A stretch of 64,000 nucleotides of DNA. Source: Chamaelirium japonicum. Its lineage: Eukaryota > Streptophyta > Magnoliopsida > Liliales > Melanthiaceae. The stretch spans positions 81,969,995 through 82,033,994 of the forward strand of contig OX393555.1 of the NCBI GenBank assembly GCA_947650365.1, written 5' to 3'. The position numbers were made by a program, and so were the translations under genes. Positions 1 to 64,000 of the stretch are shown here, one piece after another (position 1 is the stretch's first letter; each line of letters starts with the position of its first letter). The notes under the pieces are model-generated. The model had not been told where the DNA came from. It did no database searches and saw nothing but the letters and a program-made list of their open reading frames with translations.

Positions 1-621
1 CTCAACGTTATTATGATTATCATAGTAATGTTACTATAATTATTTATTTAATTATTAAATAATTTAATAATTATATAATTTAATAATTATATAATTTAAA
101 TATTTAAGCTTTTAGTAAAATAATTAATTAATTAAATTATTTAATTATCTAGTTATTTAATTATTTTTTTAATATTAATAATATAAAGTATACTAATTAA
201 ATAAATATTGAGAGAGAAGATAGAAGAAGTCCTGCTCCAGTCCATTCGCCACGGGTATAGGTATGAAGTAAGTAGGAATCTAAATTCCAAAACTCCACAG
301 AAAATAGAAAAGAAGAGAGAAGAGAACAGAGGGATAAATGAAGAAAAAAGAAGTCATGCTCCAGTCTATTGACCACGGGTATAGGTATGAAGTAAGAAGA
401 AATGTAAATTTCAAAAACTCAACTTTAACAATAGTTTATTTTATTTAGATAATTCAATAACTATTTATACTATAATAAATATATTTAATTAATTATTTTA
501 CTAAAAACTTAATTATTAAATTATTTAAAATATTTAATAATTAAATAAATATTTAATTTAATTAAAAAAAATTATTGTAATATTACTACGATAATCATAA
601 TAATGTTGAGATGATACTTTT
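1..621. repeat. AT-rich foldback block with two tails nested inside
   Basis: The left end CTCAACGTTATTATGATTATCATAG (1-25) is cut by the window. The inverted right end lies at about 560-621 (ATAATCATAATAATGTTGAGATGATAC). Between them, AT-only DNA is interrupted at 196-423 by two plus-orientation tails, each preceded by a GA tract. The part at 180-225 is inverted relative to 1,005-1,050, so 1-1,050 forms one large palindrome-like structure. Counterpart 47,805-48,414. Confidence 0.75.
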
Positions 622-1015
622 GCGAAGTGAAGTTTTGGAATTTAGATTCCTTCTTACTTCACACCTATACCCGTGACCAATGGATAGGAGCATGACTTCT
701 TCTCTCTTCATTTATTTTTCCATTCTCTTCTCCCTTCTTCTCTCTCTTCTGTCTTCATTTCTCTCTTTGTTTTTTTTTTCTTCTTCTTTCTCTTCTGTGG
801 ACTTTTGGAATTTAGATTTCTTCCTACTTCATACCTATACCTGTGGCCAATTGACTATAGCATGACTTCTTCTCTATTTTCTCTTTATTTATCTCTCTAG
901 TCTCTTTTCTCTTCTTCTCTCTCTTCTGTGGAGGTTTGGAATTTAGATTCCTTCTTACTTCACGCCTACACCCGTGGCGAATGGACTGGAGCAGGACTTC
1001 TTCTCTCTTCTCTCT
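622..1015 (-). repeat. Three minus-orientation tails with CT tracts
   Basis: Tails at about 624-690, 797-870 and 917-1,000, each followed by a polypyrimidine tract. There is no PBS or LTR between them. They mirror the plus tails at 196-423. Confidence 0.8.
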
Positions 1016-1190
1016 CAATATTTATTTAATTAGTTTACTTTATATTATTAATTCTAAAAATATAATTAAAAAACTAGTTGATTACTTTTTGAAATAAATT
1101 CAAATTATTTAAATATCTCTTATATTATTTATTAAATTAAATTATTAATAACGTGTTTAATAAATTTCATTTAATTTAAGCTTGGCATAT
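1016..1190. repeat. AT-rich linker
   Basis: It starts CAATATTTATTTAATTAGTTTAC, the inverted form of 180-215. The rest is AT-rich and includes ACGTGTTTAATAAATTTC. Counterpart about 48,815-48,980. No gene or recognisable element seen. Confidence 0.6.
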
Positions 1191-2530
1191 TTATGTCTTC
1201 GTTCTCTTCTCTTTTTTTTTCATCTCATAACACGTTAACAGCACGAATATGTCGAGCCCAACTGACCAGTCGTAAGAAAACAGAGAGAGAAATGAAGACA
1301 TAAGTGGACTTTTGGAATTTAGATTCCTTTTTACTTCATACCTATACCCGTGGCCAATGGAATAGAATAGGACTTCTTCTCTCTTCTATCTTCGTTTATC
1401 TCTTGGTTCTTGTCTTTTTTCTTTTCTCTTTTCTGTCTTTGTTTCTCTCCGTTCTCTCTTCTCTCTTCTTCTCTCTCTTCTGTGGAGTTTTGGAATTTAG
1501 ATTCCTTCTTACTTCATACCTATATCCGTATTAAGTATAGGTGTGAAGTACGAAGGAATTTAAATTCCAAAATTCCACTTCTGTCTTCATTTCTCTCTCT
1601 GTTTTCTTGTGACTAGTTGGCTAGGCTTGATATGTTAGTACTGAAAACGTGTTGTGAGATGTGAGAAAGAGTGAGCCGTCAAACGTGTGCCACTATAAAG
1701 GGGACATATAAATACTGAGGAGTGGAGTTTTGGAATTTAGATTCCTTCTTACTTCTCTCTTCTTCTCTCTTCTCACAATACATTATCAGTATGAACATGT
1801 CGAGCCCAGCCGACCAGTCACAAGAAAACAGAGAGAGAAACGAAGATAGAAGAGAGAGAAGAAGAGAGAAGAGAACGGAGAGATAATCAAAGATAGAAGA
1901 GAGAAGAAGTCCTGTTCGAGTCCATTCTCCATAGGTTTAGGTGTGAAGTAAGAAAGAATATAAATTCCAAAACTCTACTTCTATCTTTGTTTCTTTCCCT
2001 GTTTTCTTTTGACTAGTCGACTCGGCTCAACATGTTCGTGCTGATAACGTATTATAAGATAGGAGAACGAGAGGGCTACCAAACATGCCCCACACTAAAG
2101 GAGTCATATATTATTTATAGGGTAAGATTACTTAGGGCCTAAGCAATCTATAGAAAACCCTAATCCATAAGAGAGATTCGACGGTGGATAGCCATCTTTC
2201 TTACTTCATACCTATACCTGTGGCGAATGGACTGGTGTAAGACTTCTTCTCTATTCTATCTTTGTTTATCTCTCTGTTCTTTTCTATCTTCTTCTCTCTT
2301 TTCTGTCTTCGTTTATCTCTCCGTTCTCTTCTCTCTTCTTCTCTCCCTTTGTCTTCGTTTCTCTTTCTGTTTTCTTGTGACTGGTAGGTTGGGCTCGACA
2401 TATTCATGCTAATAACGTGTTGTGAGGTGGGAGGAAGCGAGAAAAGAATAAAGATATAAACATAAAGAGAATTGTTAAATGTTAAATTATCTTATAATAC
2501 GTCATCAGCACGAACATGTCGAAGAGAGAA
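1190..2530. repeat. Mixed-orientation LTR/leader/tail cluster
   Basis: Plus PBS-like motifs near 1,233, 1,781 and 2,500. Minus PBS/LTR starts near 1,650, 2,050 and 2,418. Minus tails at 1,300-1,400, 1,483-1,530, 1,720-1,760 and 2,195-2,245; plus tails at 1,528-1,580 and 1,900-1,985. A minus truncated LTR with telobox lies at about 2,050-2,195. At 1,300 a plus leader joins a minus tail through the shared sequence AGAAG; at 1,530 a minus tail abuts a plus tail. Confidence 0.8.
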
Positions 2531-2677
2531 GAGAGAAAAGAGAAGAAGTCCTGCAATCAATTAATAGAAATTTAAATCTCTCTTATAAATAACGTTCATA
2601 CCTAATCCATATTTAAATCTCTCCTACCTGTAATCAATTAAATATAGGTCTTTTTTCTTCCATTTCTGTTCGTTCAC
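2530..2677. other. Insert unlike the repeat modules
   Basis: A low-GC stretch (TGCAATCAATTAATAGAAAT and on) contains two related segments around ATTTAAATCTCTC, each linked to CATACCTAATCC or CTACCTGTAATC. It appears only here and at about 50,355-50,487. Its origin is not recognised. Confidence 0.6.
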
Positions 2678-2818
2678 CTCAACGTTATAATTAGTTAAAT
2701 AATCATATATCATAATAATGCTACTATAATTTTTTTAATTAAATTAATCATTATATTAAAACAAAGAGAGAAGAGAATTTAATATGATAATCATAATAAC
2801 GTTGAGATGATAATATTA
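2678..2818. mobile_element. Short MITE-like/foldback element (141 bp)
   Basis: It runs from CTCAACGTTATAATTAG to ATAACGTTGAGATGATAATATTAAG, with AT-rich inverted arms and a small GA stretch (ACAAAGAGAGAAGAGAATTT) in the middle. Counterpart 50,488-50,628. Confidence 0.6.
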
Positions 2819-3190
2819 AGAAGTGGAGTTTTGGAATTTAGATTCCTTCTTACTTCACACCTATACCCGTGACCAATGGACTGGAGCAGATCTTCTTCTT
2901 TCTTCTCTCTTCGTTTATCTCTCCGTTCTATTCTCTCTTCTTTTATCTCTTCTGTCTTTGTTTCTCTCTTCTTTTTCTTGTGACTGGTTGGCTGGGCTCG
3001 ACAAGTTCGTACTGATAACGTATTGTGAGATAGGAGGTTACATATTTATTTTAGTTATTTTATTTATTTTAATTATTATTTTCTAAATAAAATTATATAA
3101 TTAATTCTCTCAATTAGTAAGCTTATCCTATAAATAGACTAGAGCAGGACTTCTCCTATCTTCTCTCTTCATTTATAATTTAATTAAAAA
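2819..3190 (-). repeat. Minus tail-leader-PBS module and AT linker
   Basis: Minus tail 2,819-2,890, CT leader, reversed PBS ending at about 3,020 (TATTGTGAGATAGG). Then an AT-rich linker with a partial reversed LTR (GTAAGCTTATCCTATAAATAG near 3,116) and a truncated tail at about 3,138-3,165. Confidence 0.75.
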
Positions 3191-3902
3191 AGTATCATCT
3201 CAACGTTATTATGATTATCATAGTAATGTTACTATAATTTTTTTAATTAAATTATTTATTTAATTTTTTATTAAATAATTAAATAATTTAATTATTAAGT
3301 TTAGTAAAATAAATAATTTATTTAATATTAAATAGATGATTAATTTAAATCATATACGAAGAAATATTATAGAAACCCTATTTATTAAATTATTATAGTT
3401 TAATTTTTTTAAATTATAGTAACATTACTATAATAATCATTATTTCTTTAATTACTTATTTATTTAAATATTTATTCAATTTATTAACAAATTAGTTATT
3501 CAATAACTAAATAATCTATTTAATATATTTCTTCACTAAATAAATATTTAAATATTTAAATAATTAACTTATTATTTAATTAATTAAAAATAAATAATAA
3601 TTAATAAAATGAATTAATAAATTAATTATATAATTAAATCATTATTTTTTTATTTAATAATTAAAACAATTAAATAGTTACCTAATTAAATTATTTAATA
3701 ATATAATAATAATAAATAAATAATATAATTAATTTAATTTAATAACTAGATAATTTAATAATTAAATAAATTTATTATTTTACTAAAAACTTAGTTATTG
3801 AAATTATTAAATTAATTTAAATATTAAAAATTAAATAAATAATTAATTTAATTAAAAAAATATAGTAACATTACTTTGATAATGATGAAAACGTAAAGAT
3901 GA
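3191..3902. mobile_element. Long AT-rich foldback/MITE-like element (712 bp)
   Basis: Left end AGTATCATCTCAACGTTATT, right end ATAATGATGAAAACGTAAAGATG. The first roughly 60 bp are an inverted copy of the last 60 (TACTATAATTTTTTTAATTAA at the inner edge). The interior is A/T strings with almost no GC and no reading frame for a transposase. One of the few copies whose flanks are not the tail module. Counterpart 50,908-51,563. Confidence 0.65.
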
Positions 3903-4745
3903 CTGGTCAGCCTTAATTAATGGGAGAGATTCGACGGCGGATAGCGATCTGATAATTAGAGAGAGAAGAAGAGAGAAGAGAGAAGACGTCCTACGCTAGT
4001 CCATTCACCACGGGTATAGGTGTGAAGTAAGAAAGATGGCTGTCCACCGTTGGATCTCTCACATGGATTAGGGTTTCCCATAGATTGTTTAGGCCCTAAG
4101 TAAGCTTACCCTCTAAATAATATATTATCGTTTTAGAGTGGGGCACGTTTGACGGCTCTCTCTTTCTCCCATATCATAATACGTTATCAGCATGAACATA
4201 TCGAGCCCAATTGACCAGTCGCAAGAAAACGGAGAGAGAAACGAAGACAGAAGAGCGAGAAGAAGAGATAAGAAAACGAAGAGATAAATGAAGAAAGAAG
4301 AAGTCCTGCTTCAGTTCATTAGTTACGGGTATAGGTGTGAAGTAAGAAGGAATCTAAATTCTAAAACTCCTCAGAATAGAGAGAAGAAGAGAGAAGAGAA
4401 TAGAGAGATAAATGAAGAGAGAAGAAAGAAGAAGTCTTGCTCCTATCTCACAACACGTTATCAGCACGAATATGTTGAGGCTAGCTGACTAGACACTAGA
4501 AAATAGATAGAAAAACAAAAGAGAAGAGAGAAGAAGTCCTGCTCCAATCCATTAGCCACGGGCATAGGTGTGAAGTAGTGTGAAGTAAGAAGGAGTCTAA
4601 ATTACAAAACTCAACTTCTCAATAAATAATATAGGACCCCTTTAGGGTGAGGCACGTTTGACGGCTCTCTCTTTTTTAATTATAAACTTGAAATAATCAA
4701 TGTTTTTATAAGTATTCTTTAGGGTGGGGCACTATTATTTATCTC
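3903..4745 (+). repeat. Plus-orientation LTR/leader/tail cluster
   Basis: Plus tail about 3,985-4,030 joined directly to a truncated LTR (GATGGCTGTCCACCG at 4,035; telobox near 4,067; TATA near 4,120). Plus PBS near 4,182 and 4,456; tails at 4,305-4,370 and 4,535-4,615; a truncated R/U5 start at 4,625. A further partial R (TTTAGGGTGGGGCACTATT) lies near 4,719. The stretch 4,676-4,710 (ATTATAAACTTGAAATAATC) is not part of the usual module. Confidence 0.8.
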
Positions 4746-4749
4746 TACG

Positions 4750-5114
4750 TTCTCTTACTTCGTTTAAATAATTAACTAATTATTTAATTATTTAAAAATA
4801 AGATAATAATTAAAGAAATAACTAATAAAATAAATTAATAAATTAATTATATAATTAAATCATTATTTCTTTATTTAATTATTTAAATAATTAAATAGTT
4901 ATCTAATTTAATTATTTAATAATAAAATAATAATAATAAATAAAATAATAAATTTATTTAAATAATTAGATAATTAAATAAATTAATTATTTTAATAAAA
5001 ACTTAATTATTAAATTATTTAAATTAATTAATAATTAAATAAAATTTTAATTTAATTTAAAAATTTATAGTATCATTAATATGATAATCATAATAACGTT
5101 GAGAAGATACTATT
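4750..5114. mobile_element. AT-rich foldback element, right half
   Basis: Only the right terminus is present (ATAATCATAATAACGTTGAGAAGATACTATTGAG). The left terminus is missing and the AT core starts abruptly after TCTCTACGTTCTC. Counterpart 52,551-52,907. Confidence 0.6.
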
Positions 5115-7143
5115 GAGAAGTGGAGTTTTTTAATTTAGATTCCTTCTTACTTCATACCTATACCCGTGGCCAATGGACTAGAGCATGACTTCTTCTTACT
5201 TAGGGCCTAAGCAATCTATGCGAAACCCTAATCCATGGGAAAGATCCGATTGTAGACAGTTATCCGATAATTAGAAAGAGAAGAACATAGAAGAGAGAAT
5301 AAGTCCAGCTCCAGTCCATTCACCATGGGTATAGATATGAAGTAAGAATAATAACTGTCCACCGTCGGATCTCTCCTATAGATTAGGGATTTCCATAGAT
5401 TACTTAGGCCTTAAGTAAGCTTACCCTATAAATAATAAATTATCCCTTTAGGGTGGAGCACATTTGACGGCTCTTTCTTTCTCCCATTTTACAACACATT
5501 ATCAGTATGAACATATCAAGCCCAGCCGACCAGTCGCAAGAAAATAGAGAAAAAAATGAAGATAGAAGAGAGAGAGAAGAAGAGAGAAAAGAATAGAGAG
5601 ATAAATAAAGAGGGAAGAGAAAAGAAGTGCTACTCTAGTTCATTGGCCATGGGTATTGGTGTGAAGTAAGAAGGAATCTAAATTCCAAAACTCCAAAGAA
5701 GAGAGAGAAGAAGAGAGAAGATAACGAAGAGATAAATAAAGAGAGAAAAGAGAAGAAGTCCTACTCCAGTCCATTGGCCACGGGTATAAGTGTGAAGTAA
5801 GAAGGAATCTAAATTCTAAATCTCTACAGAAGAGAGAAAAGAAGAGAGATTAAATAAGGAGTAGGACTAAAAATAATATTAGTTAAATAATCTCTCCCAT
5901 TCAGCACGAACATATCGAGCCCAGCTGTTCAATTACAAAAAAACGGAGAGAGAAACGAAAACAGAAGAGAGAGAAGAAGAGAGAAGAGAACAGAGAGATA
6001 AATGAAGAGAGAAGAGAGAAGAAGTCCTGCTCCAGTCCATTCGCCACGGGTATAAGTGTGAAGTAAAAAGGAATCTAAATTCCAAAACTCCAGTTCTCAA
6101 AATTATAATTAAATCTTTCCATTCTCTTCTCTCTTCTTCTCTCTCTTTTATCTTCTCTTCTCTCTTCGTTTTCTTGCGACTGGTCGGCTGGGCTCGATAT
6201 GTTCGTACTGATAACGTGTTGTGAGATGGGCAAAAGAGAGAAAAGAACAAAGAGATAAACAAGGAGAGAAGTAAAAAGAAGTCCTCCTTAGGCCCTAAGT
6301 AATCTCCCATGGATTAGGATTTATCATAGATTGCTTAGGCCCTAAGTAATCTTATCCAATTAATAATATACCTATGACCTCTCCAGTCCATTGGCCACGG
6401 GTATAGGTGTAAAGTAAAAAGGAATGTAAATTCCAAAACTCCACTTCTTAATATTTATACGACTCATTTAGGGTGGGCATATTTGATAGCTCTTCCTTTC
6501 TCCCATCTCGCAACTTGTTATCAGCATGAACATGTCGAGCCGAGCCGACCATTCATAAGAAAATGGAGAGAGAAATAAAGACAGAAGTGGAGTTTTGGAA
6601 TTTATATTCTTTCGTACTTCATATATATACCCGTGGATAATGGACTGGAGCATGACTTCTTCTTTCTTTTCTCTTCGTTTATCTCTCCGTTATCTTCTCT
6701 CTTCTTTTCTTTCTTCTGTCTTTGTTTCTTTCTCTATTTTCTTGTGACTGGTCAGCTGGGCTCGATATGTTCGTGCTGATAACGTGTTATGAGATTAAAT
6801 AAGTATAATAAATAATAAGATGGTAGAGATCTGATGGGTCGTATAAATATTAAGAAGTGGAGTTTTGGAATTTAGTTTCCTTCTTACTTCATAACTATAC
6901 CCGTGGTGAATAGACTAGAGTAGGAGTTCTTCTCTCTTCTCTCTTTGTTTATCTCTTCGTTCTCTTCTCTCTTCTTTGAAGAATATACGACCCCTTTAGG
7001 ATAGGGCACGTTTGACGGCTCTTTTCTCCCATCTCAAAACACATTATCAGTACGAACATATTGAAGAGAGAAGAAGTTATATAATCAATTAAATATTTAT
7101 TTAATTAGATTCCATGGGGCTCGATATATTCGTGCTAATAATG
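5115..7143. repeat. Mixed-orientation cluster
   Basis: Minus tail 5,117-5,195 and minus partial U3 5,196-5,265; plus tail 5,305-5,350 and plus LTR 5,350-5,495. Plus PBS near 5,497, 5,905 (partial), 6,516 and 7,042; plus tails 5,625-5,690, 5,755-5,825, 6,027-6,095 and 6,377-6,450. Minus PBS near 6,217 and 6,785; minus tails 6,585-6,650 and 6,855-6,930. A type A junction lies at about 6,445-6,460. Confidence 0.8.
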
Positions 7144-7311
7144 TGTTGTGAGATGGGAGAAAGAGAGAGCCGTCAAATGTGCCCCACCCTTAAAGGGTCG
7201 TATATTATTTATAGGGTAAGCTTACTTAGGGCCTAAGCAATGTATGGGAAACCCTAATCTACGGGAGAGATCCGATAGTAGGTAGCCATCCGATCGAACG
7301 ATCTCATAACA
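7144..7311 (-). mobile_element. Full-length LTR-like unit (168 bp), minus orientation
   Basis: On the + strand it reads TGTTGTGAGATGGG to ATCTCATAACA, so the element has TG...CA ends and a terminal inverted repeat. A reversed PBS-like motif (CGTGCTAATAATG) abuts the left edge. TATA box, CCCTAAAGGG core and degenerate GTTCGATCGG are present. It forms a divergent pair with the plus LTR at 7,858. The higher-order counterpart is 54,585-54,753. The LTR identity is inferred from structure only; no coding region is linked. Confidence 0.65.
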
Positions 7312-7445
7312 ATTGTAATGTTTTAATTTTTTTTAAAAAAAAATATTAAATATTTTTCATGCAAAAAATTTGTTTATTTAAATTAATTATTTTACTAAAA
7401 ACTTAATTTATAAATTTTTTAAATTATTAAATAATTTAAACAAAG
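7312..7445. repeat. AT-rich linker after the minus LTR
   Basis: A reversed and decayed form of the AT flank seen beside other LTRs (AATTGTAATGTTTTAATTTTTT), then ATTATTTTACTAAAAACTTAATT, the interior of the foldback family. Confidence 0.6.
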
Positions 7446-7548
7446 ATAAATAAGTGAGAAGAGAGAAGAAGTCTTGCTCCAGTCCATTCACCACGGGTAT
7501 AGGTGCGAAGTAAAAAGGAATCTAAATTCTAAAACTTCACTTCTCAAT
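7446..7548 (+). repeat. Single plus tail
   Basis: A GA tract followed by a complete tail (about 7,470-7,548), leading directly into the foldback end AGTATCATC. Confidence 0.75.
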
Positions 7549-7857
7549 AGTATCATCTCAACGTTACTATGATTATAATAGTAAATTCTCTTCTCTCTTC
7601 ATTTTAATTAAATGATTAATTTAATTAAAAAATTATAGTAGCAACACTCTACTTAATTATCATAGTAATAAAATAAAGTAAGAAGAGAGAAGATAATTAA
7701 ATATTTAATTAATTATTTAATTATATAACTATTTAATTTATTAAATAATCAAATTAATTAAATAATAAGAAGTAAAGAAAGAAGATGAAGCACACTCGAA
7801 TTTTTTACTTTAAAAATATTTTACATTTTTCTTTAAAAAAATATAAAACATTACAAA
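7549..7857. repeat. Short foldback plus conserved LTR-flanking AT region
   Basis: Left foldback end at 7,549 with an internal CTCTTCTCTCTTC tract. The right end is rearranged (GTAGCAACACTCTACTTAATT). From about 7,680 come AT strings and then the flank shared by seven LTR copies (AGATGAAGCACACTCGAATT through ATTACAAA). Counterpart 54,965-55,258. Confidence 0.65.
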
Positions 7858-8024
7858 TGTTGTGAGATCGTTCGATCGGATGGCTGTCCACAGTCGAACC
7901 TCTCCCATGGATTAGGGTTTGTCGTAGATTGCTTAGGTCCTAAGTAAGCTTACCTTATAAATAATATACGATACTTTTAGGGTGGGGCACGCTTGACGGC
8001 CCTATTTTTCTCCCATCTTACATA
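7858..8024 (+). mobile_element. Full-length LTR-like unit (167 bp), plus orientation
   Basis: It starts TGTTGTGAGATCG, and the end is slightly degenerate (ATCTTACATA). The PBS-like CGTTATCAGCACGA follows at 8,025. A telobox TTAGGGTTT lies at 7,912-7,920 and a TATA box (TTATAAATA) at 7,955-7,963, leaving about 60 bp of R/U5. The length matches TRIM-class LTRs. The AT-rich left flank (7,785-7,857) is shared with six other LTR copies, so this copy probably spread with its surroundings. Confidence 0.65.
7912..7963 (+). promoter_or_regulatory. LTR promoter core: telobox, palindrome, TATA box
   Basis: TTAGGGTTT at 7,912, GCTTAGGTCCTAAGTAAGC near 7,931 and TTATAAATA at 7,955 form the arrangement kept in dozens of LTR copies in both orientations. 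Spacing of telobox to TATA is about 40 bp. In plants teloboxes are bound by TRB-type proteins. Activity of any copy is unproven. Confidence 0.5.
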
Positions 8025-8377
8025 CGTTATCAGCACGAACATATCGAGCCCAGCCGACCAGTCGCAAAAAAATGAAGAGAGAAACGAAGACAGAAGAAAG
8101 AGAAGAATAGAGAAGATAACGGAGAGATAAATGAAGATAGAAGAGAGAAGAAGTCCCGCTCCAGTCCATTAGCCATGGGTATAAGTACGAAGTAAGAAGA
8201 AATTTAAATTCAAAAACTCTACTTCTATATTTGATTCTCTCTCTGTTTTCTTACGATTGGTCGGCTAGGCTCGATATGTTCATGCTGATAACATGCTAAG
8301 AGATGGGAGAAAGAAAGAAGAGAGTAAAGAGATAAACGAAGAGAGAAGAGAAAAGAAAGAAAAAGTCCTGCTCTTTC

Positions 8378-8450
8378 TAGTTTAAGATGATTTTCTATCT
8401 CTTTTCTATCAATACTTATTTATTTTATTTTATACTATAAGAGAAAGAGA
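8378..8450. other. Insert unlike the repeat modules
   Basis: CTAGTTTAAGATGATTTTC and the following ATCAATACTTATTTATTTTATTTTATAC do not match leader, tail or LTR. The same stretch recurs only at about 55,778-55,845. Function unknown. Confidence 0.55.
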
Positions 8451-8489
8451 GAGAAATAAAGAAAACGGGGAGAGAAACAAAAGATAACG

Positions 8490-8690
8490 TGTTATAAGAT
8501 GGGAGAAAGAGAGAGCCGTCAAATATGCCCTACCCTAAAAGAGTCGTATATTATTTATAGGGTAAGTAGTATGAGATGGGAGAAAGAGAGAGCTATCAAA
8601 CGTGCCCTACCCTAAAGGGGTCGGATATTATTTATAGGGTAAGCTTAATTAGGGCCTAAGAATTCTATGGGAAACCCTAATCCATGGGAA
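8490..8690 (-). repeat. Type E tandem duplication of the LTR 3' half
   Basis: On the + strand a partial LTR (8,490-8,567) ends GGGTAAG and is followed at once by another LTR start (TAGTATGAGATGGG). About 80 bp from LTR end to TATA region are therefore present twice. The same junction is seen near 14,358-14,440, 21,699-21,780, 23,870-24,020 (plus), 46,790-46,933 (plus) and 55,897-55,965. Confidence 0.75.
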
Positions 8691-11600
8691 AAGAGAGAAG
8701 AGAACAGAGAAATTTAATTATATTATTGAGAAGTAAAGTTTTGGAATTTAGATTCCTTCTTAATTAAACTAGATATGTTATCAGCACGAACATATCGAGC
8801 CCAGTCGACCAGTTGCAAGAAAACAGAGAGAGAAACAAAGACAGAAGTGGAGTTTTGGAATTTGGATTCTACCTTACTTTACACCTATACCCGTGGCCAA
8901 TGGACTGGAGCATTACTTCTTCTCTCTTCATTTATCTCTCCGTTCTCTTTTCTCTTCTTCTTTCTCTCTTGTCTTCGTTTTTCTCTCCATTTTCTTGCGA
9001 TTGGTCGGCTGGGCTTGACATGTTTGTGCTGATAACGTATTGTGATTTGGGAGAAAGAGATAGAGCCGTCAAATATGCCCTACCCTAAAGGGGTCATGTA
9101 TTATTTATAGGGTATGCTTACTTAGAGCCTAAGCAATGTATGGGAAATCCTAATCCATAGGAGAAGAGAGAAGAGAACGGAGATTTTTAATTATATTATT
9201 AAGAAGTGGAGTTTTGGAATTAAGATTCCTTCTTACTTCAAACCTATACCCATGGCTAATGTACTGGAGCAGAACTTCTTCTCTCTTCATTTATCTCTCT
9301 GTTCTCTTCTCTTTTCTTCTCTCTCTTCTATCTTCATTTCTCTCTCCTTTTTCTTGTGACTAGTCCGCTGGGCTCGATATGTTCATATAGATAACGTGTT
9401 GTGAGATGGGAGAAAGAGAGAGTCATCAAACTTGCCCTACCCTAAAGGGGTCGTATATTATTTATAGGGTAAGCTTACTTAGGGCCTAAGCAATCTATGA
9501 GAAACCCTAATCCATGGGAGAAGAAAGAAGAGAAAGGAGAGATTTAATTATATTATTGAGAAGTGGAGTTTTGGAATTTAGATTTCTTCTTACTTCACAC
9601 CTATACCTGTGGCGAATGGACTGAAGCAGGACTTCTTCTCTCTTCTCTCTTTATTTATCTCTTTGTTCTCTTCTCACTTGTCTTAACATATTATTAGCAC
9701 AAATATGTCAAGCCCAGCCGACCAGTCATAAGAAAACGGAGAGAGAAACAATGACAGAAGTGAGAGAAGAAGAGATAAGAGAACGGAAAGATAAACGAAG
9801 AGAGAAGAGAGAAGAAGTCCTACTCCAGTCCATTAGCTATGGGTATAGGTGTGAAGTAAGAATGAATCTAAATTCCGAAACTCCATAGAAGAGAGAGAAG
9901 AAAAGAGGAGAGAACGGAGAGATAAATGAAGTTAGAATATAAAAGAAGTCCTACTCCAGTCCATTGGCCATGGGTATAGGTATGAAGTAAGAAGGAATCT
10001 AAATTCCAAAACTCCATTTCTATCTTCATTTCTCTCTCCATTTTCTTGTAACTGGTCGGTTGGGGTCGATATTTTTGTGCTGATAATGTGTTATGAGATA
10101 TGAGAAAGAGAGAGCCATCAAATGTGCCCCTCCCTAAAGAGGTTATATATTATTTGTAGGGTAAGCTTAATTAGGGCCACCGTCGAATCTCTCCCATGGA
10201 TTAGGATTTCCTATAGATTGCTCCAAGTAATCTTACCTTATAAATAATATATGACCCTTTTAGGGTGGGGTACGTTTGACGGCTTTCTCTTTTTCCCATC
10301 TTATAATAAGTTATCTGTACGAACATATCGAGCCCAGCCGACCAGTCACAAGAAAACGGAGAGAGAAACAAAGACAAAAGTGGAGTTTAGGAATTTATAT
10401 TCCTTCTTATGTCACACCTATACCCGTAGCCAATGGACTAGAGTAGGACTTCTTCTTTCTTTATTTATCTCTCCATTCTATTCTCTCTTCTTATTTCTCT
10501 TATGTGGAGTTTTGAAATTTAGATTCATTATTACTTTACAGCTATACGCGTAGCCAATGGACTGGAGCAGGACTTCTTATATCTTCTCTCTTTGTTTATC
10601 TCTCTGTTATCTTCTTTCTCTTCTTTCATCTTTTCTCTCTCTGTTTTCTTATGACTGGTCGGTTAGGTTCGACATGTTCATGTTGATAATGTGTTGTGAG
10701 AAGAGAGAAGAGAACAGAGAGACAAATAACAAAGAGAGAAGAGAGAATAAGTCCTGTTCCAGTCTATTTTCCACAGGTATAGGTATGAATTAAGAAAGAT
10801 TCTAAATTCCAAAACTCCACTTCTCAATAATATAATTAAATCCCTTCGTTCTTTTTTCTCTTTGTCTATGGATTAGGGTTTCTCATAGATTGCTTAGGCC
10901 CTAAGTAAGCTTTTCCTATAAATAATATACGACCCCTTTAGGGTGGGGCACGTTTGACGGCTCTCTCTTTCTCCCACCTCACAGCATATTATCACTACGA
11001 ATATATCGAGCCTAGCTGACCAGTCGCAAGAAAATAGTAAGAGAAATGAAGATAGAAGTGGAGTTTTGGTATTTATATTCCTTCTTACTCCACATTTATA
11101 CCCGTGGCTAATGTACTGGAGTAGGACATCTTCTCTCTTCTCTCTTCATTTATCTCTCTGTTTGCTTCTCGCTTCTTATATCTCTTTTGTCTTCATTAAA
11201 CTCCACTTCTTCTCTATATTAACAGATAGAGAAACGAAGACAAAAGAGAAAGAAAAAGAGAAAAGAAAATGGAGAGATAAACAAAGAGAGAAGAAGTCCT
11301 GCTCCAGTCCATTGGCCACTGGTATAGGTATGAAGTTCTTTATTTTCTCTTTATTTATCTCTCTATTCTCTTCTCGCTTCTTATCTCTCTTCTGTCTTCG
11401 TTAAAGTCCCCTTCTTCTGTAAATAAACGGATAAAGAAAAGTAGACAGAAGTAAGAGAAGAAGAGAAAAGAGAACGGAGAGATAAACGAAGAGAGAAGAG
11501 TGAAAAAGTCCTGCTCTAGTTAATTGGCTACAGGTATATGTGTGAAGTAAGAAGGAATTTAAATTCCAAAACTCCACTTCTATCTTCGTTTCTGTTTCTG

Positions 11601-37483: not shown

Positions 37484-37593
37484 ATTGATAATATTACTAT
37501 AATTTTTTTAATTAAATTAATTATTTAATTAAAATGAAGAGAGTTTTGAAATTTACTATGATAATCATAATAACTTTGAGATGATGCTATTGA
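37484..37593. mobile_element. Short AT block, relative of 19,846-19,951
   Basis: GTATTGATAATATTACTATAAT, an AT core, GAGAGTTTTGAAATTTACTATG and ATAATAACTTTGAGATGATGCTATTGAG. Confidence 0.65.
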
Positions 37594-54753: not shown

Positions 54754-55258
54754 GTTATAATGTTTTAATTTTTTTTTAAAAAATATTAATTATTTTTAAA
54801 GCAAAAAATTTGTTTTTTTATTTAATTATTTTACTAAAAACTTAATTTATAAATTTTTTAAATTATTAAATAATTTAAATGAAGATAAATAAGAGAGAAG
54901 AGAGAAGAAGTCCTACTTCAGTCCATTCGCTACGGGTATAGGTGTGAAGAAAGTCCTACTTCAGTCCTACGATTATCATAGTAAATTCTCTTCTCTTTTC
55001 GTTTTAATTAAACTATTAATTTAATTAAAACAATTATAGTAACAACACTCTATTTAATTATTATAGTAATAAAATGAAGTGAGAAGAGAGAAGATAATTA
55101 AATATTTATTTAGTTATTTAATTATTTAACTATTTAATTTATTGAATAATTAATTTAATTAAATAATAGGAAGTAAAGAAAGAGGATGAGGCACACTCAA
55201 ATTTTTTGCTTTAAAAATATTTTATATTTTTTATTAAAAAAATATAAAACATTACAAC
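54754..55258. repeat. AT linker, one tail, short foldback and LTR flank
   Basis: Reversed AT flank 54,754-54,890; plus tail 54,905-54,950, broken by a short repeat (AGTCCTACTTCAGTCC twice). Rearranged foldback 54,965-55,075, then AT strings and the conserved flank. In copy 1 the tail and foldback left end are intact. Confidence 0.65.
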
Positions 55259-55426
55259 TGTTGAGAGATCGTTCGATCGGATTGCTATCCACCATCGGAC
55301 CTCTCCTATGAATTAGGGTTTCCCGTAGATTACTTAGGCCCTAAGTAAGCTGATCCTATAAATAATATATGACACCTTTAGGGTAGGGCATGCTTGACGG
55401 TTCTCTTTTTCTCCCATCTTACAACA
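55259..55426 (+). mobile_element. Full-length LTR-like unit (168 bp), plus orientation
   Basis: Starts TGTTGAGAGATCGTTCG and ends ATCTTACAACA, with an exact CGTTATCAGCACGA at 55,427-55,440. Telobox at 55,313-55,321 and TATA box near 55,357. The conserved AT flank (GATGAGGCACACTC) lies at about 55,185-55,258. One of the best-preserved LTR/PBS junctions here; counterpart of 7,858. Confidence 0.7.
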
Positions 55427-58400
55427 CGTTATCAGCACGAACATATCGAGCCCAGCCGACCAGTCGTAAAAAAATGGAGAGAGAAACGAAGACAGAAGAG
55501 AGAGAAGAAGAGAGAAGAGAACGGAGAGATAAACGAAGATAGAAGAGAGAAAAAGTCCCGATCTAGTCCATTAGCCATGGGTATATGTATGAAGTAAAAA
55601 GAAATTTTAATTTGAAAACTCTACTTCTGTCTTCGTTTCTCTCTCCGTTTTCTTGCAACTGGTTGGTTAGGCTCGATATATTCATGCTGATAATATGTTA
55701 TGATATGGGAGAAAGAAAAAAAAGAATAATAAAATAAACGAAGAGAGGAGAGAAAAGAAGTCCTGCTCTCTCTAGTTTAAAATAATTTTCTATCTCTTTT
55801 CTATTAATACTTATTTATTTTATTTTATACTATAAGAGAAAGAGAGAGAAACAAATAAAACGGGGAGAGAAACGGGGAGAGAAATAAAAGATTACGTGTT
55901 ATAAGATGGGAGAGAGAGAACCTACCCTAAAGGGGTCATATATTATTTATAAGGTAAGTGTTGTGAGATGGGAGAAAGAGAGAGTCATCAAACGTGCCCT
56001 AACCTAAAGGGGTCGAATATTATTTATAGGGTTAGCTTACTTAGAGCCTAAGCAATCTATAGGAAACCCTAATCTATAGGAGAAGAGAGAAGAGAACAAA
56101 GAAATTTAATTATATTATTAAGAAGTGAAGTTTTGGAATTTAGATTCCTTCTTAATTAAACTAGATATGCTATCGGCATGAACATATTGAGCCCAGCCGA
56201 CCAGTCGCAAGAAAACGGCGAGAAAAACAAAGAAGAAGTGGAGTTTTGGATTTTAGATTCCATCTTACTTTACACCTATACCCATGGCCAATGGACTGGA
56301 GCATGACTTCTTCTCTCTTCATTTATTTCTCCATTCTCTTCTCTCGTCTTTTCTCTCTTCTGTCTTCGTTTCTCTCTCCATTTTCTTGCGACTAGTCGGC
56401 TGGGCTCGACATGTTCGTGCTGATAACGTGTTGTGATTTTGGAGAAAGAGATAGAGCTGCCAAACATGCCCTACCCTAAAGGGGTCATGTATTATTTATA
56501 GGGTATACTTACTTAGGGCTTAAGCAATCTATGGGAAATCCTAATCCATAGGAGAAGAAAGAAAAGAATGGAGATATTTAATTATATTATTGAGAAGTAG
56601 AGTTTTTGAATTCAGATTCCTTCTTACTTCATTCCTATACCCATGGCCAATGTACTGGAACATAACTTCTTCTCTCTTTGTTTATCTCTCTATTCTCTTC
56701 TCTTGTTTTCTCTCCCTTCTATCTTCGTTTCTCTCTCCGTTTTCTTGTGACTGGTCGGCTTGGCTCGATATGTTCGTGTAGGTAACGTGTTGTGTGATCG
56801 GAGAAAGAGAGATCCGTCAAATATGCCTTATCATCAGGGGTCATATAAATATTAAGAAGTGGATTTTGGAATTTTGATTCCTTCTTACTTCAAATCTATA
56901 CCCGTGGCTAATGGACTGGAGCAGGACTTCATCTCTCTTCTATCTTCGTTTATCTCTATGTTCTCTTCTTTCTTCTTCTCTCTCTTCTGTCTTCGTTTCT
57001 CTCTCCGTTTTCTTACGACTGGTCAGCTGGGCTTGACATGTTCGTGCTGATAATATATTATAAGATGGGATAAAGAGAGAGTCATCAAATGTGTCCCACC
57101 CTAAAGGGGTCGTATATTATTTATAGGGTAAGCTTACTTAGGGCCTAAGCAATCTATAGGAAACCCTAATCCATGGGAGAAGAGAGAAGAGAAATGAGAG
57201 ATTTAATTATATTATTGAGAAGTGGAGTTTTGGAATTTAGATTTCTTCTTAGTTCACACCTATACCCGTGGTGAATGGACTGAAGCAGGACTTCTTCTCT
57301 CTTCTCTCTTCGTTTATTTCTTCATTCTCTTCTCACTTGTCATATCATATTATCAGAACAAACATGTCGAGCCCAGCCGACCAGTCATAAGAAACGGAGA
57401 AAGAAACAAAGACAGAAGTAAGAGAAGAAAAGAGAAGATAACGGAGAGATAAACAAAGAAAGAAAAGAGAAGAAGTCATGCTCCAGTCCATTGGCCACGG
57501 GTATAGGTGTGAAGTAAATATGAGTCTAAATTCTGAAACTCCATACAAAAGAGAGAAGAAGAGAGAAGAGAACGGAGAGATAAATAAAGTAAAAAGAGAA
57601 GAAGTTCTACTCCAGTCCATTAGCCATGGGTATAGGTATGAAGTAAGAAGGAATCTAAATTCCAAAACTCCTTTTCTATATTTGTTTCTCTCTCCGTTTT
57701 CTTGTGACTGGTCAGTTGGGCTCGATATTTTCATGCTGATAATGTGTTATGAGATGCGAGAAAGAGAGAGCCATCAAACGTGCCCCTCCCTAAAGGGGTC
57801 GTATATTATTTATAGGGTAAGATTAATTAGGGCCAAAGAAATCTATAGGAAATCCAAATCCATGGGAGAGATCCGACGGAGGATAGCCATCCTTCTTACT
57901 GCACACCTAAACTCATAGCTAATGGACTTGAGCAAGACTTCTTCTCTTTTCTCTCTTTATTTGTCTCTTCGTTCTATTCTCTTTTCTTCTCTCTCTACTG
58001 TCTTTGTTTCTCTCTCTGTTTTCTTGTGACTAGACGGTTGGGCACGATATATTCATACTGATAACGTGTGGTGAGATGAGAGAAAGAGAGAGAAGAGAAT
58101 GAAGAGATAAACAAAGAGAGAAGAGAAAAGAAGTCTTGCTCCATTCTATTGGCCACGGGTATAGGTGCGAAGTATGAAGGATGGCTGTCCACCGTCGGAT
58201 ATCTCTTATTGATTAAGATTTCCTATAGATTGCTTAGGCCCTAAGGAAGCTTACCCTATAAATAATATACGATCCTTTTAGGGTAGGGCATGTTTGACGG
58301 CTCTCTCTTTCACCCATCTCATAACACGATATTAGTACGAACATGTCGAGCCCTGCTGACCAGTCACCAAAAAACAGAGAGAGAAACAAAGACAGAAGGG

Positions 58401-61016
58401 GAGTTTAGGAATTTAGATTCCTTCTTACGTCACATCTATACCCGTGGCCAATTGACTGGAGTAGGACTTGTTCTCTCTTCTCTCTTTATTTATCTCTTCT
58501 TTCTCTTCTCTCTTCTAATCTCTCTTATGTAGAGTTTTGGAATTTAGATTCCTTCTTACTTTACAACTATACGTGTGGCCAATAGACTGGAGCAGGAGTT
58601 CTTCTATCTTTCTTCTTCATTTATCTCTCCGTTATCTTCTCTCTCTTTTATCATTATTTCTCTCTTCGTTTTCTTATGACTAGTCGGTTGGGCTCGACAT
58701 GTTCATATTGATAACGTGTTGTGAGAAGAGAGAAGAGAACGGAGAGACAAACAAAGAGAGAAGAGAGAAGAAGTCCAGTTCCAGTCCATTCGCCATGGGT
58801 ATAGGTGTACAGTAAGAAGGAATCTAAATTCAAAAACTCTACTTCTTAATAATATAATTAAATCTCCCTGTTTTCTTTTCTCTTCGTCTATGGATTAGGG
58901 TTTCCTATATATTGCTTAGGCCCTAAGTAAGCTTTCCCTATAAATAATATACGACCCCTTTATGGAGGGACATGTTTGATGGCTCTTCCTTTTTCTCATC
59001 TCACAACATGTTGTCAGCACGGATATATCAAGCCCAGCCGACCAGTCGCAAGAAAACTGTAAGACAAATGAAGACATAGTGGAGTTTTGGTATTTAGATT
59101 CCTTCTTACTTCACACTTATACCCATGACCAATGGACTGGAGCAGGACATCTTCTCTCTTTATTTATCTCTCTGTTCCCTTCTCGCTTCTTATCTCTCTT
59201 CTGTCTTCGTTAAATTCCACTTCTTCTCTATATAAACGGATAGAGAAATGAAGACAGAAGACAAAGAAAACGAAAGAAGAAAACGGAGAGATAAATGAAG
59301 AGAGAAGAGAGAAGAAGTGCTGCTCCAGTCCATTGGTCATGGGTATAGGTGTGTAGTTCTCTCTTTTCTCTTTATTTATCTCTTCATTCTCTTCTCGATT
59401 CTTATCTCTCTTCTGTCTTTATTAAACTCTTCTTCTTCTCTCAATAAACGAATAGAGAAATGTAGACAGAAGTGAGAGAAGAAGAGAAATGAGAGATAAA
59501 TGAAGAGAGAAGAGTGAAGAAGTCCTGCTTTAGTCTATTGGCCACGGGTATAGGTATGAAGTAAGAAGGAATTTAAATTCCAAAACTCTACTTCTGTCTT
59601 CGTTTCTCTTTCTGTTTTCTTGCGACTGGTCAGCTGGGCTCAACATGTTCGTGCTGATAAAGTGTTATGAGATGGGAGAAAGGAAGTGCCGTCAAACGTG
59701 CCCTACCCTAAAGGTGTCGTATATTATTTATAGGGTAAGATTACTTAGGCCATAAGCAATCTATGGGAAGCTCTAATATATGGGAGAAGAGAGAAAAGAA
59801 TGGAGAGATTTAATTATATTATTTAGAAGTGGTTTTTTGGAATTTAGATTCCTTCTTACTTCACACCTATACCCGTGCCGAATGGACTGGAGTAGTACTT
59901 CTTCCCTCTTCTTTTTTCGTTTATCTCTCCCTTCTCTTTTCTCTTCTTTTTTTTTTCTCATAACTCGTTATCACCATGAACATATCGAGCCCAGCCGATC
60001 AGTCACAAGAAACCGAAGAAAGAAATGAAGACAGAAGAGATAGAAGAAGAGTGAGGAGAATAGAGAGATAAATAATTTAAATAATATATTTAAATAATTT
60101 AGTTAAATTCTAAATAGTGGTCGGCTGGGCTCGGCATGTTCATGCTGATAACTCTTGTGAGTAAGGAGAAGAAGATAGAAGAGAATAGAGAGATAAACGA
60201 AGAAAGAAGAGAGAAGAAGTTCTGCTCCAGTCCATTAACCATGGGTATATGTGTTACGTAAGAAGGAATCTAAATTCCAAAACTCCACTTCTCAATAATA
60301 TAGTTAAATCTCTCCGTTCTCTTCTCTCTTCTCCTATGGAGTTGGGTTTCTCATTTAACGGCTCTCTCTTTCTTCCATCTTATAATATGTTATTAGCACA
60401 AACATGTCGAGCCCAGTCGACCAGTCATAAGAAAAACAGAGAGAAAAACAAAGACAAAAGAAGAGAGAAGAGAACAGAGAGCTAAACAAAGATAGAAGAG
60501 AGAACTTCACACCTATACCCATGGCCAATGGACTGAAGCAGGACTTCTTCTCTCTTTGTTTATCTCTCTGTTCTCTTCTCTCTTCTATCTTTATTTCTCT
60601 CTCTATTTATTGAGAAAAGAAGTTGAGTTTAACGAAGACAGAAGAGAAAGAAGAAGAGAATCGAGAGATAAATGAAGGGAGAAGAGAGAAGAAGACCCAC
60701 TCTAGTCAATTGGCAATAGGTATAGGTGTGAAGTAAGAAGGAATCTAAATTCAAAAACTCCATTTCTGTCTTTGTTTTTCTATCCATTTTCTTGTGATGG
60801 GTCAGCTGGGCTCGACATGTTCGAGCTAAAAACATATTGTGAGATGAGAGAAAGAGAGAGAGCCGTCAAACGTGCCCCACCCTAAAGAGGTCGTATATTA
60901 TTTATAAGGTAATCTTACTTAGGGCCTAAGTAATCCATGGGAAAACCTAATCCATGGGAGAAGATAGAAAAGAACAGAGAGATTTAATTATATTATTGAG
61001 AAGTGGAGTTTTCTCA
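55427..61016. repeat. Mixed cluster, counterpart of 8,025-13,079
   Basis: Plus PBS 55,427, 56,168, 57,348, 58,327, 59,009, 59,966 and 60,388. Minus PBS/LTR starts 55,696, 55,897, 56,429, 56,788, 57,056, 57,745, 58,067, 58,717, 59,663, 60,152 and 60,835. Type E at 55,897-55,965. It holds two segments absent from copy 1: a minus tail/leader/R module (about 56,815-57,100), and U3 plus minus tail/leader and plus tail (about 57,836-58,186). Confidence 0.8.
55778..55845. other. Insert unlike the repeat modules (second copy)
   Basis: CTAGTTTAAAATAATTTTC and TACTTATTTATTTTATTTTATAC, the counterpart of 8,378-8,450. Not explained by the modules. Confidence 0.55.
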
Positions 61017-61157
61017 ATAGTATCATCTCAACGTTATTACAATTATCATAGTAAATTCTCTTCTCTCTTCGTTTTAATCAAATAATTAATTTAATTAAAA
61101 AAATTATAGTAGCATTACTATGATAATTATAATAATGTTGAGAAGATACTATTGAGA
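61017..61157. mobile_element. Short foldback/MITE-like element
   Basis: AGTATCATCTCAACGTTATTAC to ATAATGTTGAGAAGATACTATTGAG, with a CTCTTCTCTCTTCG tract inside. Preceded by the same GTGGAGTTTTCTC join as copy 1 (13,080). Confidence 0.65.
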
Positions 61158-62504
61158 AGTGGAGTTTTAAAATTTAGATTCCTTCTTACTTTATACCTAT
61201 ACCCATGGTGAAAAGACTGGAGTATGACTTATTCTCTCTTCTCTTTTCGTTTATCTCTTTATTATTTTCTCTTATCTTCTATTTTCGTTTCTCTCTCCGT
61301 TTTCTTATAACTGGTCGGTTGGGCTAGACATGTTCGTGCTGATAACGTGTTGTGAGATGGGAGAAAGTTAGAGCCATCAAACATGCCCTACTCTAAAGGG
61401 GTCGTATATTATTTATAGGATAAGCTTACTTAGTGCCTAAGCAATCTATGGTAAACCCTAATCCATGGGAGAAGATAGAAGAGAATGGAGAGATTTAATT
61501 ATATTTTTGAGAAGTGGAGTTTTGGAATTTAGATTCCTTCTTACTTCACACATATACTCGGGGCCAATGGACTAGAACAGGACTTCTTCTCCCTTCTTTC
61601 TTCGTTTATCTCTCCATTCCCTTCTCTCTTCTTCTCTCTCTTATGTCTTTGTTTCTCTCTCCATTTTCTTGCGACTGGTTGCTGGGCTCGACATGTTCGT
61701 GCTGATAATGTGTTATGAGATAGGAGAAAGAGAGAGCCGTTAAACATGCCCCACGCTAAAGGGGTTACATATTATTTATTGGGTAAGCTTACTTAGGGCC
61801 TACGTAATCTATGGAAAACCCTAATCTATGGGAGAGATCCGACTGTGTATCTCTTAATATTTGAACTTAGGGCCTAAGCAATTCGGGTGTGCCACTTCTT
61901 ACTATCGAGCCCAACTGACCAGTCGTATCTCTCTCTTCTGTCTTTGTTTATCTCTTCGTTCTTTTCTCACTTCTTCTCTCTCTTCTATGGAGTTTTAGAA
62001 TTTAGATTCCTTCTTACTTCACACCTTTACCCATGGCGAATGGATTGGAGAAGAACTTCTTTTTCTCCTCTCTTCGGAGAGATAAGAGAGAAGAAGAAAA
62101 AAAAAACAGAGAGATAAATAAAGAGAGAAGAAAGAAGAAGTCCTGCTCCAGTTCATTGACCCTGGGTATAGGTGTGAAGTAAGAAGGAATCTAAATTTCA
62201 AAACTCCTCTTCTGTCTTCGTTTCTCTATCTGTTTTCTTACGACTGGTCGGCTGGGCTCGATATGTTTGTGCTGATAATATGTTGTGAGATGGGAGAAAG
62301 AGAGAGCCATAAACGTGCCCCACCTTAAAAGGGTCGTATATTATTTATAGGGTAAGCTTACTTAGGGCCAAACCAATCTATGGAAAACCCTAATCCATGG
62401 GAGAAAAGTAAAGAAAACGGAGAAATTTAATTATATTATAGGACCCCTTTAGGGTGGAGCAAGTTTGATGACTTTCTCTTTCTCCCATCTCACAACACGT
62501 TTAT
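61158..62504. repeat. Mostly minus cluster, counterpart of 13,221-14,649
   Basis: Minus tails 61,155-61,220, 61,514-61,580 and 61,985-62,055; minus PBS/LTR starts 61,348, 61,711 and 62,281; back-to-back plus tail 62,140-62,200; plus R/U5 62,440-62,500. Contains the scrambled patch 61,850-61,925. The type E duplication of copy 1 is absent. Confidence 0.8.
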
Positions 62505-62635
62505 TAGTAAATTTAATTATTAAATTATTAAATTATTTAAATTATCTAATAATTAAATAAATAAATAATTTAATTAAAAAAATTATAGTAACATTACTAT
62601 GATAATTATAATAACGTTGAGGTGATACTATTGAG
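62505..62635. mobile_element. Foldback element, right half
   Basis: Right terminus ATAATTATAATAACGTTGAGGTGATACTATTGAG, joined on the left to an LTR end (CACAACACGTTTATTAG). Confidence 0.6.
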
Positions 62636-63054
62636 AAGTGAAGTTTTGGAATTTAGTTCCTTCTTACTTCACACCTATAACTATGGCAATAATCAATTAT
62701 ATATAATTAAATATTTATAAGGTAAGCTTACTAGTTAAGAGAATTGATTTAATAATTATTTTAATAAATAATTAATACGACCCCTTTAGGGTGGGGCACG
62801 TTCGATCGGATAGTTGTCCACCGTCGGATCTCTTCCATGGATTAGGGTTTCCCATAGATTGCTTAAGCCCTAAGTAAGTTTACCCTATAAATAGTATACG
62901 ACCCCTTTTGGGTGGGGCACATTTGACAGCTCTCTCTTTCTTTCATCTTACAACGCATTATCAGCATGAACATGTCGATCCCAACCGACCAGTCATAAGA
63001 AAATAGAGAGAGAAACGAAAACAGAAGAAAGAGAAGAAGATATAGTTAAAAAAT
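62636..63054. repeat. Chimeric LTR cluster
   Basis: Minus tail 62,635-62,685, AT linker, then the R-into-U3 chimera (GGGGCACGTTCGATCGGATAG at about 62,794), with telobox, TATA and, unlike copy 1, a full R/U5 and PBS at 62,956. GA leader to 63,045. Confidence 0.75.
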
Positions 63055-63500
63055 TAATAATTTTAATAAATTTATTATGTAATTAATTAATTAAACCTTT
63101 TTTTATTAAATTATGAAATACTAATTAAAATAAATAAAAAAATTTATTATTTAATTTAGTAATAAAATAAAATAGTAATTCAATAACTATTTACTTATTA
63201 TTTAAATAATAAATTAATTTTTTGAAAATATAAATAATAAAATATTTTTTTAAATAACTTAAATTTCTTTAAATAATCAAATTAATATTTATTTATTTTA
63301 ATATTTAAATATTAAATAAATTATTTAAATATTTAGTTATAAAGGTAATTATATATTTATTTAATTATTTAACTATTTAATTATTAAATTAATTAAATTA
63401 ATTAAATAATAGGAAGTAAAGAAGGAAGATGAGGCACACCCAAATTTTTTGCTTTAAAAATAATTTATATTTTTCTTTAAAAAATTTAAAATATTACAAC
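63055..63500. repeat. AT-rich block and conserved LTR flank
   Basis: Counterpart of 15,362-15,812; ends GATGAGGCACACCCAAATTT ... ATTACAAC before the LTR. No gene seen. Confidence 0.6.
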
Positions 63501-63668
63501 TGTTATAAGATCGTTCGATAGGATAGCTGTCCACCATCGGATCTCTCCCATGGATTAGGATTTCCTATTGATTACTTAGGTCCTATGTAAGTTTACCCTA
63601 TAAATAATATACGACCCCTTTAGGGTGGAGCATGTTTGATGACTCTTTCTTTCTCCTATCTCACAACA
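63501..63668 (+). mobile_element. Full-length LTR-like unit (168 bp), plus orientation
   Basis: Starts TGTTATAAGATCG and ends ATCTCACAACA; the PBS-like motif begins at 63,669. The TATA box CTATAAATA lies at 63,598-63,606, so a start about 30 nt downstream would leave a very short R+U5 of about 40 nt. The telobox is decayed (TTAGGATTT). Counterpart of 15,813-15,980. Confidence 0.7.
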
Positions 63669-64000
63669 CGTTATCAGCACAAACATGTCGAGCCCAGCTG
63701 ACCGGTCATAAGAAAACGAAGAGAGTAACGAAGACAGAAGAGAGAGTAGATGAAAGAAGAGAACGAAGTATAAATGAAGAGAGAAGAGAGAAGAAGTCAT
63801 GCTCCAGTCCATTCACTATGGGTATAAGTATAAAGTAAGAAAGAATATAAATTCCAAAATTCAACTTCTTAATATTTATATGACCCCTTTAGGGTGGGGC
63901 ACGTTTGACGGCTCTCTTTTTCTCCATCACACAATACGTTATCAGCATGAACATGTCGAGCCCAACTGACCAGTCATAAGAAAACAGAAAGAGAAAGGAA
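63669..64000 (+). repeat. Plus array at the window end
   Basis: PBS 63,669, GA leader, tail 63,800-63,868, type A junction at 63,870, R/U5, PBS 63,937 and the start of another GA leader cut by the window. Counterpart of 15,981-16,300. Confidence 0.8.

Follow-up and report, generated by a model that had tools for sequence, protein, structure and literature searches.

What kind of DNA fills a 64,000-bp stretch of the Chamaelirium japonicum genome in which long terminal repeat (LTR) ends, leader-like pieces and foldback sequences recur in both orientations, and by what steps could such a stretch have been built? The stretch analysed here (hereafter, the window) corresponds to positions 81,969,995-82,033,994 of contig C7 (OX393555.1) in an assembly that comprises 1.52 Gb in 3,253 contigs, and an earlier sequence-only reading had described it as a gene-free, bidirectional array derived from retroelements. 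Our analysis favors, with confidence somewhat above even, a satellite, probably heterochromatic, that would descend from the 5' end of one Bianca-type Ty1/copia retrotransposon, would have been duplicated as DNA by folding back, and would later have spread between chromosomes.

Module composition and coding content

Six reference modules were taken from the window: the left flank (A1), the two halves of the LTR (L1 and L2), the primer binding site (PBS) together with the leader (P), the GA-rich tail (G), and the terminal part of a foldback stretch rich in A/T (A2). A representative plus-strand series consists of A1 at 7,769-7,857, an LTR copy (L1 and L2) with a TATA-like box at 7,858-8,024, P at 8,025-8,098, with the PBS CGTTATCAGCACGA intact at 8,025-8,038, and G, of about 128 bp, at 8,099-8,226 (131-bp tandem copies also occur). 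The annotation puts the end of A1 at 7,859, and by reading the TG of the LTR stands at 7,858; the 3' end of this LTR copy, read by eye and from the annotation, is mutated. The A2 reference (17,940-18,012, plus strand; 30 nhmmer matches) directly adjoins G at the outer end of the latter. With a foldback or MITE-type element in view, A2 ends were seen to pair in inverse orientation, and the 27 G-to-A2 junctions to involve the same G end each time.

The jumping-profile annotation divided the window into 1,151 segments and assigned 55,127 bases to modules and 8,739 to A/T-rich filler, leaving 134 of the 64,000 unassigned. When the first 50 kb of the window were shuffled as 3-mers and annotated in the same way, 99.3% remained unassigned, so the module fit is not a product of the annotation method. 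Module bases were distributed almost equally between the strands (26,454 plus and 28,673 minus), as were the 225 nhmmer matches of G (108 plus and 117 minus), and orientation switched 266 times across the 850 module segments of at least 12 bp, with runs of 135 bp in the median and 227 bp in the mean. Thus, the mixture of LTR ends, leader sequences and foldback elements that the sequence-only reading had described, flipping every few hundred bases, is borne out, as are its satellite-like character and its derivation from a retroelement, the latter denoted by the LTR with inverted TG..CA ends, the TATA-like box, the PBS and the leader. A simple satellite, with one monomer in one orientation, was rejected on the strand totals.

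Coding remnants were likewise rejected as an explanation, on the 134 unassigned bases and on the 10 longest of 31 open reading frames (ORFs) of at least 100 amino acids. None of these 10 matched a Pfam domain at the curated cut-off, gag-pol domains included, and the best weak match, DUF4199 (E 2.2e-4; 22.2 bits against a cut-off of 32.3), was discarded as low complexity. Furthermore, ARAGORN detected no tRNA gene and no Rfam family reached its gathering score in the window, in agreement with the earlier failure to find a single coding domain.

A probable single founder 5' end

In the window, the PBS directly follows 154 of 158 LTR 3' ends, the remaining four being followed by another partial LTR, and all 12 LTR starts are preceded by the flank A1. 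The same was observed in 200 kb of contig C4, where 457 of 469 LTR 3' ends lead into the PBS and, under a slightly looser limit, 35 of 36 LTR starts follow A1. By reading, the better-kept LTR copies carry their TG..CA ends as an 11-base inverted repeat (TGTTGTGAGAT and ATCTCACAACA). Retrotransposition is expected to yield 3' LTRs with varied neighbors about as often as 5' LTRs; LTR 3' ends that do not lead into a PBS are few, which argues for DNA copying. Since the LTR/PBS and the flank/LTR borders are each essentially one common junction, the evidence points to one 5' end, already joined to its flank, that would have been multiplied as DNA, and not to many LTR insertions; the sequence-only reading, which had taken the pieces for many separate LTR ends, needs correction here.

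The LTR of the array shows no regular pairing of 5' and 3' copies around an internal region, exceptions to the LTR-then-PBS order numbering 4/158 in the window and 12/469 in the C4 sequence; a terminal-repeat retrotransposon in miniature (TRIM) or another non-autonomous LTR element is disfavored for want of this LTR pair. Moreover, no polypurine tract adjoins the LTR starts, the bases there being A/T-rich, and a purine-rich run of about 24 bases is located inside A1, some 70 bases upstream of the LTR start.

The commonest PBS, CGTTATCAGCACGA, is exact in 26 of 146 near-full P copies. It is complementary to half of the tRNA-Ile(AAT) encoded in this genome at 13 of 14 positions, the sole exception being a C opposite A34. 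The tRNA-Ile stretch has nine exact copies in the genome, and tRNA-Ile(AAT) was called by ARAGORN at all four loci read. In Neumann et al. (2019, PMC6317226), priming by a half-tRNA-Ile that carries, by editing, a C-pairing inosine in place of A34 is attributed to the Bianca lineage of Ty1/copia only; the editing of A34 is taken from that paper. The LTR ends of Bianca are described as conserved over 13 bases (PMC4963935), compared with the 11-base inverted ends of the array. Based on the half-tRNA-Ile PBS and the LTR ends, the array is probably derived from a Bianca-type Ty1/copia element. Unlike Bianca, it presents no coding region that we could find, no regular 3' LTR and no adjoining polypurine tract, and for this reason it would not itself be such an element. 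Exact PBS-region patterns had no match in viral contigs or in genome contigs, and the tRNA-Ile stretch, searched as text, had none in the papers covered.

Head-to-tail order within the window

At a larger scale, window positions 1-16,304 and 47,813-64,000 (both plus strand) are collinear head to tail in a blastn chain of 11 pieces, nine of them 86-89% and two 78-81% identical, at offsets of 47.3-48.2 kb. The two blocks share 194 module tokens (of 209 and 216, respectively); 200 shuffles gave no more than 82 and six other blocks of the window no more than 89. Their base distance over the first 2 kb is about 0.10. They represent the first and second partial copies of a higher-order unit of about 47.8 kb, of which 1.34 periods lie inside the window, and the head-to-tail recurring unit that characterizes a higher-order satellite is therefore present.

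The contrast with head-to-tail satellites that the sequence-only reading had drawn does not stand, in view of this unit in the window and of a much larger palindromic unit elsewhere in the genome. That reading had held that intact genes or a head-to-tail unit explaining the region would speak against it; the 10 longest ORFs yielded no Pfam domain at its cut-off, and a head-to-tail unit does occur. The self-comparison that it had proposed as a check confirmed repeats on both strands (self-blastn matches span 99.9% of the window in direct and 98.1% in inverted orientation) and revealed the 47.8-kb collinear order that it had missed.

Copies and palindromes elsewhere in the genome

Window positions 1-2,000 have at least 39 further long matches in the assembly at 92-98% identity, 36 over the full 2 kb and three over 1.25-1.7 kb; this is a lower bound, given that the best 40 of 16,198 candidates were scored. 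The listed matches fall on contigs C2, C3, C4, C7, C10, C43, C163 and C207, and on the large contigs they lie mostly in the distal megabases: at 93.7-94.5 of 94.9 Mb on C4, 94.1-97.1 of 100.1 Mb on C3, 80.6-82.0 of 85.9 Mb on C7, and 0.39-1.26 and 109.9-111.4 of 122.5 Mb on C2, C10 being the exception (59.2-59.4 of 73.6 Mb). Among these listed matches, 25 of 27 pairs of neighboring copies less than 200 kb apart have opposite orientations, and in one of the two same-orientation exceptions, on C4, a partial inverted copy lies in between.

The 200 kb of C4 form a chain of palindromes, with axes near 93.699, 93.766 and 93.842 Mb. The first has 37-kb arms that are 97.6% identical around a spacer of about 550 bp; by eye, both arms end in P modules, and the spacer seems to continue from one arm and then to turn back at a three-base match. 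In the second, with arm pieces 97.2-97.7% identical, the turn joins window position 30,071 via about 860 bp to position 35,624 read backwards, the window itself running straight through the stretch between these two points (30,071-35,624, plus strand). The third has 18-kb arms, 97.4% identical, and a spacer of about 130 bp.

The fold-back junction of the second palindrome was detected at two further axes, near 0.518 Mb on C2 and near 93.921 Mb on C4, both predicted from match positions before 8 kb were fetched at each. The junction is conserved there at 98.6-99.0% over 7-8 kb, and the inverted arms within the C2 piece are 97.5% identical over 734 bp. One fold-back junction at three places on two contigs, at this level of identity, argues for a single origin followed by spread; the palindrome that shares this junction thus probably arose once, and its unit would then have spread.

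Layers of divergence and proposed origin

The copies of the array fall into layers of different divergence. Pairwise identity averages 80.5-83.1% among module copies, about 87% by blast between the 47.8-kb direct copies (about 10% base differences), 97.2-97.7%, or about 97.5%, between palindrome arms, and near 99% between shared fold-back junctions. In the nine of the 40 listed copies of window positions 1-2,000 that were compared (from C2, C3, C4, C7 and C163), differences of 1.1-2.1% were observed regardless of contig, with one C3 pair at 0.1%. In 8 of the 11 chain pieces, the counterparts at 47.8 kb are closer than the average copy of the same module (G, 87.5 vs. 82.6%; P, 86.4 vs. 80.6%; L2, 87.4 vs. 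82.3%). C>T and G>A changes are in excess, and highest at CG (22-30%), which fits methylated DNA; the array is most likely passively amplifying, heavily mutated DNA, probably methylated.

In the course of events that we propose, the founder would have comprised the flank, 5' LTR, PBS, leader and GA tail of a Bianca-type Ty1/copia element, multiplied as DNA and not by retrotransposition. Inverted copies would have been generated by fold-back, either through template switching or through fusion of broken sister chromatids, at matches of 2-5 bp such as AGAAG. Short inverted modules already present may have seeded larger inverted copies, so that the array would keep producing bigger palindromes; direct higher-order repeats could then have been made by unequal exchange, and in the latest phase whole palindromic blocks may have moved among several chromosomes. 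In this context, the recurrent rearranged joins were read by eye: the join of P to inverted G has AGAAG in common, and other joins have two to four bases in common. Such short matches may be marks of template switching or of end joining with fold-back, a mechanism suggested by the junctions only.

Inverted repeats in this DNA range in size from single modules to palindromes whose arms reach 37 kb, and direct repeats occur at 131 bp, 3.4-3.7 kb and 47.8 kb. A more far-reaching version, to which we give tentative credence short of even, would be a satellite growing by recursive fold-back, in which inverted modules seed duplications whose products seed larger ones, under one grammar from 130 bp to arms of about 37 kb, the palindromes then becoming the amplifying monomer across chromosomes.

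Several observations weigh against this course of events. The 25 of 27 alternating pairs are not 27 independent events, as blocks are copied as units, and at the smallest scale the G modules flip in 74 of 186 cases compared with 93.4 +/- 6.9 for shuffled orientations, which is rarer than chance; strict alternation of the small modules was rejected on this count. The 47.8-kb counterpart ranks as the single best match for no more than 10 of 22 copies of G, 6 of 30 of P and 9 of 19 of L2, and the best other module copy is on average closer than the counterpart, suggesting that later exchange or independent duplication also acted and blurred the picture. The microhomology concerns a few recurrent junctions, read by eye and without a chance control, and the low complexity of the GA-rich sequence favors short matches. 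The Bianca assignment draws on the PBS and the LTR ends. Outside the window, the sequence read comprised 200 kb of C4, 8 kb at each of two further axes, eight copies of 5 kb and some small pieces. Furthermore, 16 kb of the C4 sequence, spread over 32 segments, are other DNA. They include a young 8-kb LTR retrotransposon, with 2,046-bp LTRs that are 99.3% alike, inserted inside the array at C4:93,736,410-93,744,447; the matching place in the window lacks it, as do the other arms read on C4.

Alternative explanations

Growth and spread through extrachromosomal DNA, rolling-circle or palindromic, that reinserts into chromosomes, with a lesser part for interchromosomal exchange, is unlikely, although it would account for two of the results above: the 1.1-2.1% differences among nine copies regardless of contig (apart from the C3 pair at 0.1%) are what a burst from one source should leave, and one fold-back junction is common to different contigs. 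The blocks are clustered and mostly distal, however, an arrangement that ectopic exchange explains too.

Satellite birth is usually explained by unequal exchange of direct repeats, and the repetition in direct orientation, at 131 bp, at 3.4-3.7 kb and at 47.8 kb, would suit an ordinary higher-order satellite made by unequal crossing-over alone. Exchange between direct repeats yields no inverted copies, yet one module in two is inverted, as are the largest blocks, and we consider this account improbable.

Palindromes are known artefacts of long-read data, and inverted repeats could stem from fold-back reads or from mis-joined haplotypes in the library or assembly. The differences between the arms are mostly substitutions (about 2%), with transition/transversion ratios of 1.95-2.65, and homopolymer-type indels account for 6 of 34 and 2 of 12 indel events in the first and second C4 palindromes. 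Fold-back reads are thereby disfavored as the source, less clearly for the third palindrome, in which 9 of 18 events are of homopolymer type. In addition, one junction was found at three places on two contigs, and the two copies of the 47.8-kb repeat within the window have diverged by about 10%, leaving an artefact very improbable.

Finally, the view that retrotransposons or non-autonomous, TRIM-like elements accumulated here as nested insertions, in either orientation, can draw on genuine LTR-like ends and PBS, on the purine-rich run in A1 and on insertions that do occur in the array, such as the 8-kb element on C4, but it is scarcely credible, because LTR 3' ends without a PBS are few, a single left flank occurs, LTR starts adjoin A/T-rich and not polypurine bases, and collinear 47.8-kb and palindromic copies exist.

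Comparison with known systems

Amplicons produced by breakage-fusion-bridge cycles or fold-back inversion, known from cancer and from maize genetics, contain very large palindromes that turn with little homology around short non-palindromic spacers. The palindromes described here are similar in their size and in their short non-palindromic spacers; they differ in that the blocks stand in a genome assembly, on several contigs, and are layered over older inverted copies.

Among satellites, the nearest described case that we can name is the D1100/E3900 pair of the rye B chromosome, characterized as complex satellites composed of retroelement fragments that lack coding capacity, located in a distal, instability-prone block (PMC6210368; PMC11549084). 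The array shares this origin from retroelement fragments without coding capacity. The rye units measure 1.1 and 3.9 kb and are arranged in tandem on the B chromosome, whereas the array presents one founder LTR end nested in direct and inverted layers that reach tens of kilobases, and it occurs on several of the largest contigs. Satellites of Lathyrus sativus, reported to have been born from Ogre LTR retrotransposons (PMC7004042), likewise have an LTR retrotransposon origin. In that account, short tandem repeats of the 3' untranslated region (3'UTR) expanded, and long arrays are located in primary constrictions; here it is the 5' LTR/PBS end that is repeated, most of the listed copies are distal, and inversions occur throughout.

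The sequence-only reading had proposed an undescribed class of satellite. Satellites from retroelement fragments are already known, as these examples denote, and the part of that proposal which stands is the nested inverted organization up to tens of kilobases, which is unusual. No retroelement-derived satellite with inverted layers of up to tens of kilobases was met in the titles and abstract openings searched, which is far from proof of absence. With layers of about 82, 87, 97.5 and 99% identity in one place, the order of direct and inverted steps becomes readable, and the array offers a natural test of fold-back copying as builder and spreader of satellite blocks, with a 5' LTR end, and not a 3'UTR tandem repeat, as the source.

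Further features of the array

Within the window, smaller direct and inverted repeats were also identified. A direct tandem of 3.73 kb comprises units at 31,882-35,624 and 35,619-39,344 (both plus strand; 82.1% identical by self-blastn), and other direct periods of 131 bp and 3.37 kb were recovered in the self-comparison. Two old inverted arms, at 28,443-30,890 (plus strand) and 37,581-40,147 (minus strand), match each other at 78.9%. An internal palindrome at 9,325-11,058 (axis at about 10,191; 81.6%) lies in the first copy of the 47.8-kb unit and has its counterpart in the second copy at 56,988-59,076 (axis at 58,032; 81.1%). The stretch at 2,555-2,673, which accounts for 119 of the 134 bases left unexplained by the modules, is AT-rich and contains CTCTCCTACCTG.

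On other contigs, a block of about 3.5 kb at C4:93,685,556-93,689,070, with a higher GC content (44%), is largely of non-module sequence and occurs three times in the 200 kb. Three same-orientation copies of window positions 1-2,000 stand about 1.5 Mb apart on C3 (at 94,069,309, 95,568,136 and 97,081,426), the last two differing by 0.1%, and represent either a recent megabase-scale duplication or a duplication in the assembly. The start of contig C43 (positions 1-500) carries a different short tandem repeat, of GAATGAATTAGAATGGATCGTAC-like words.

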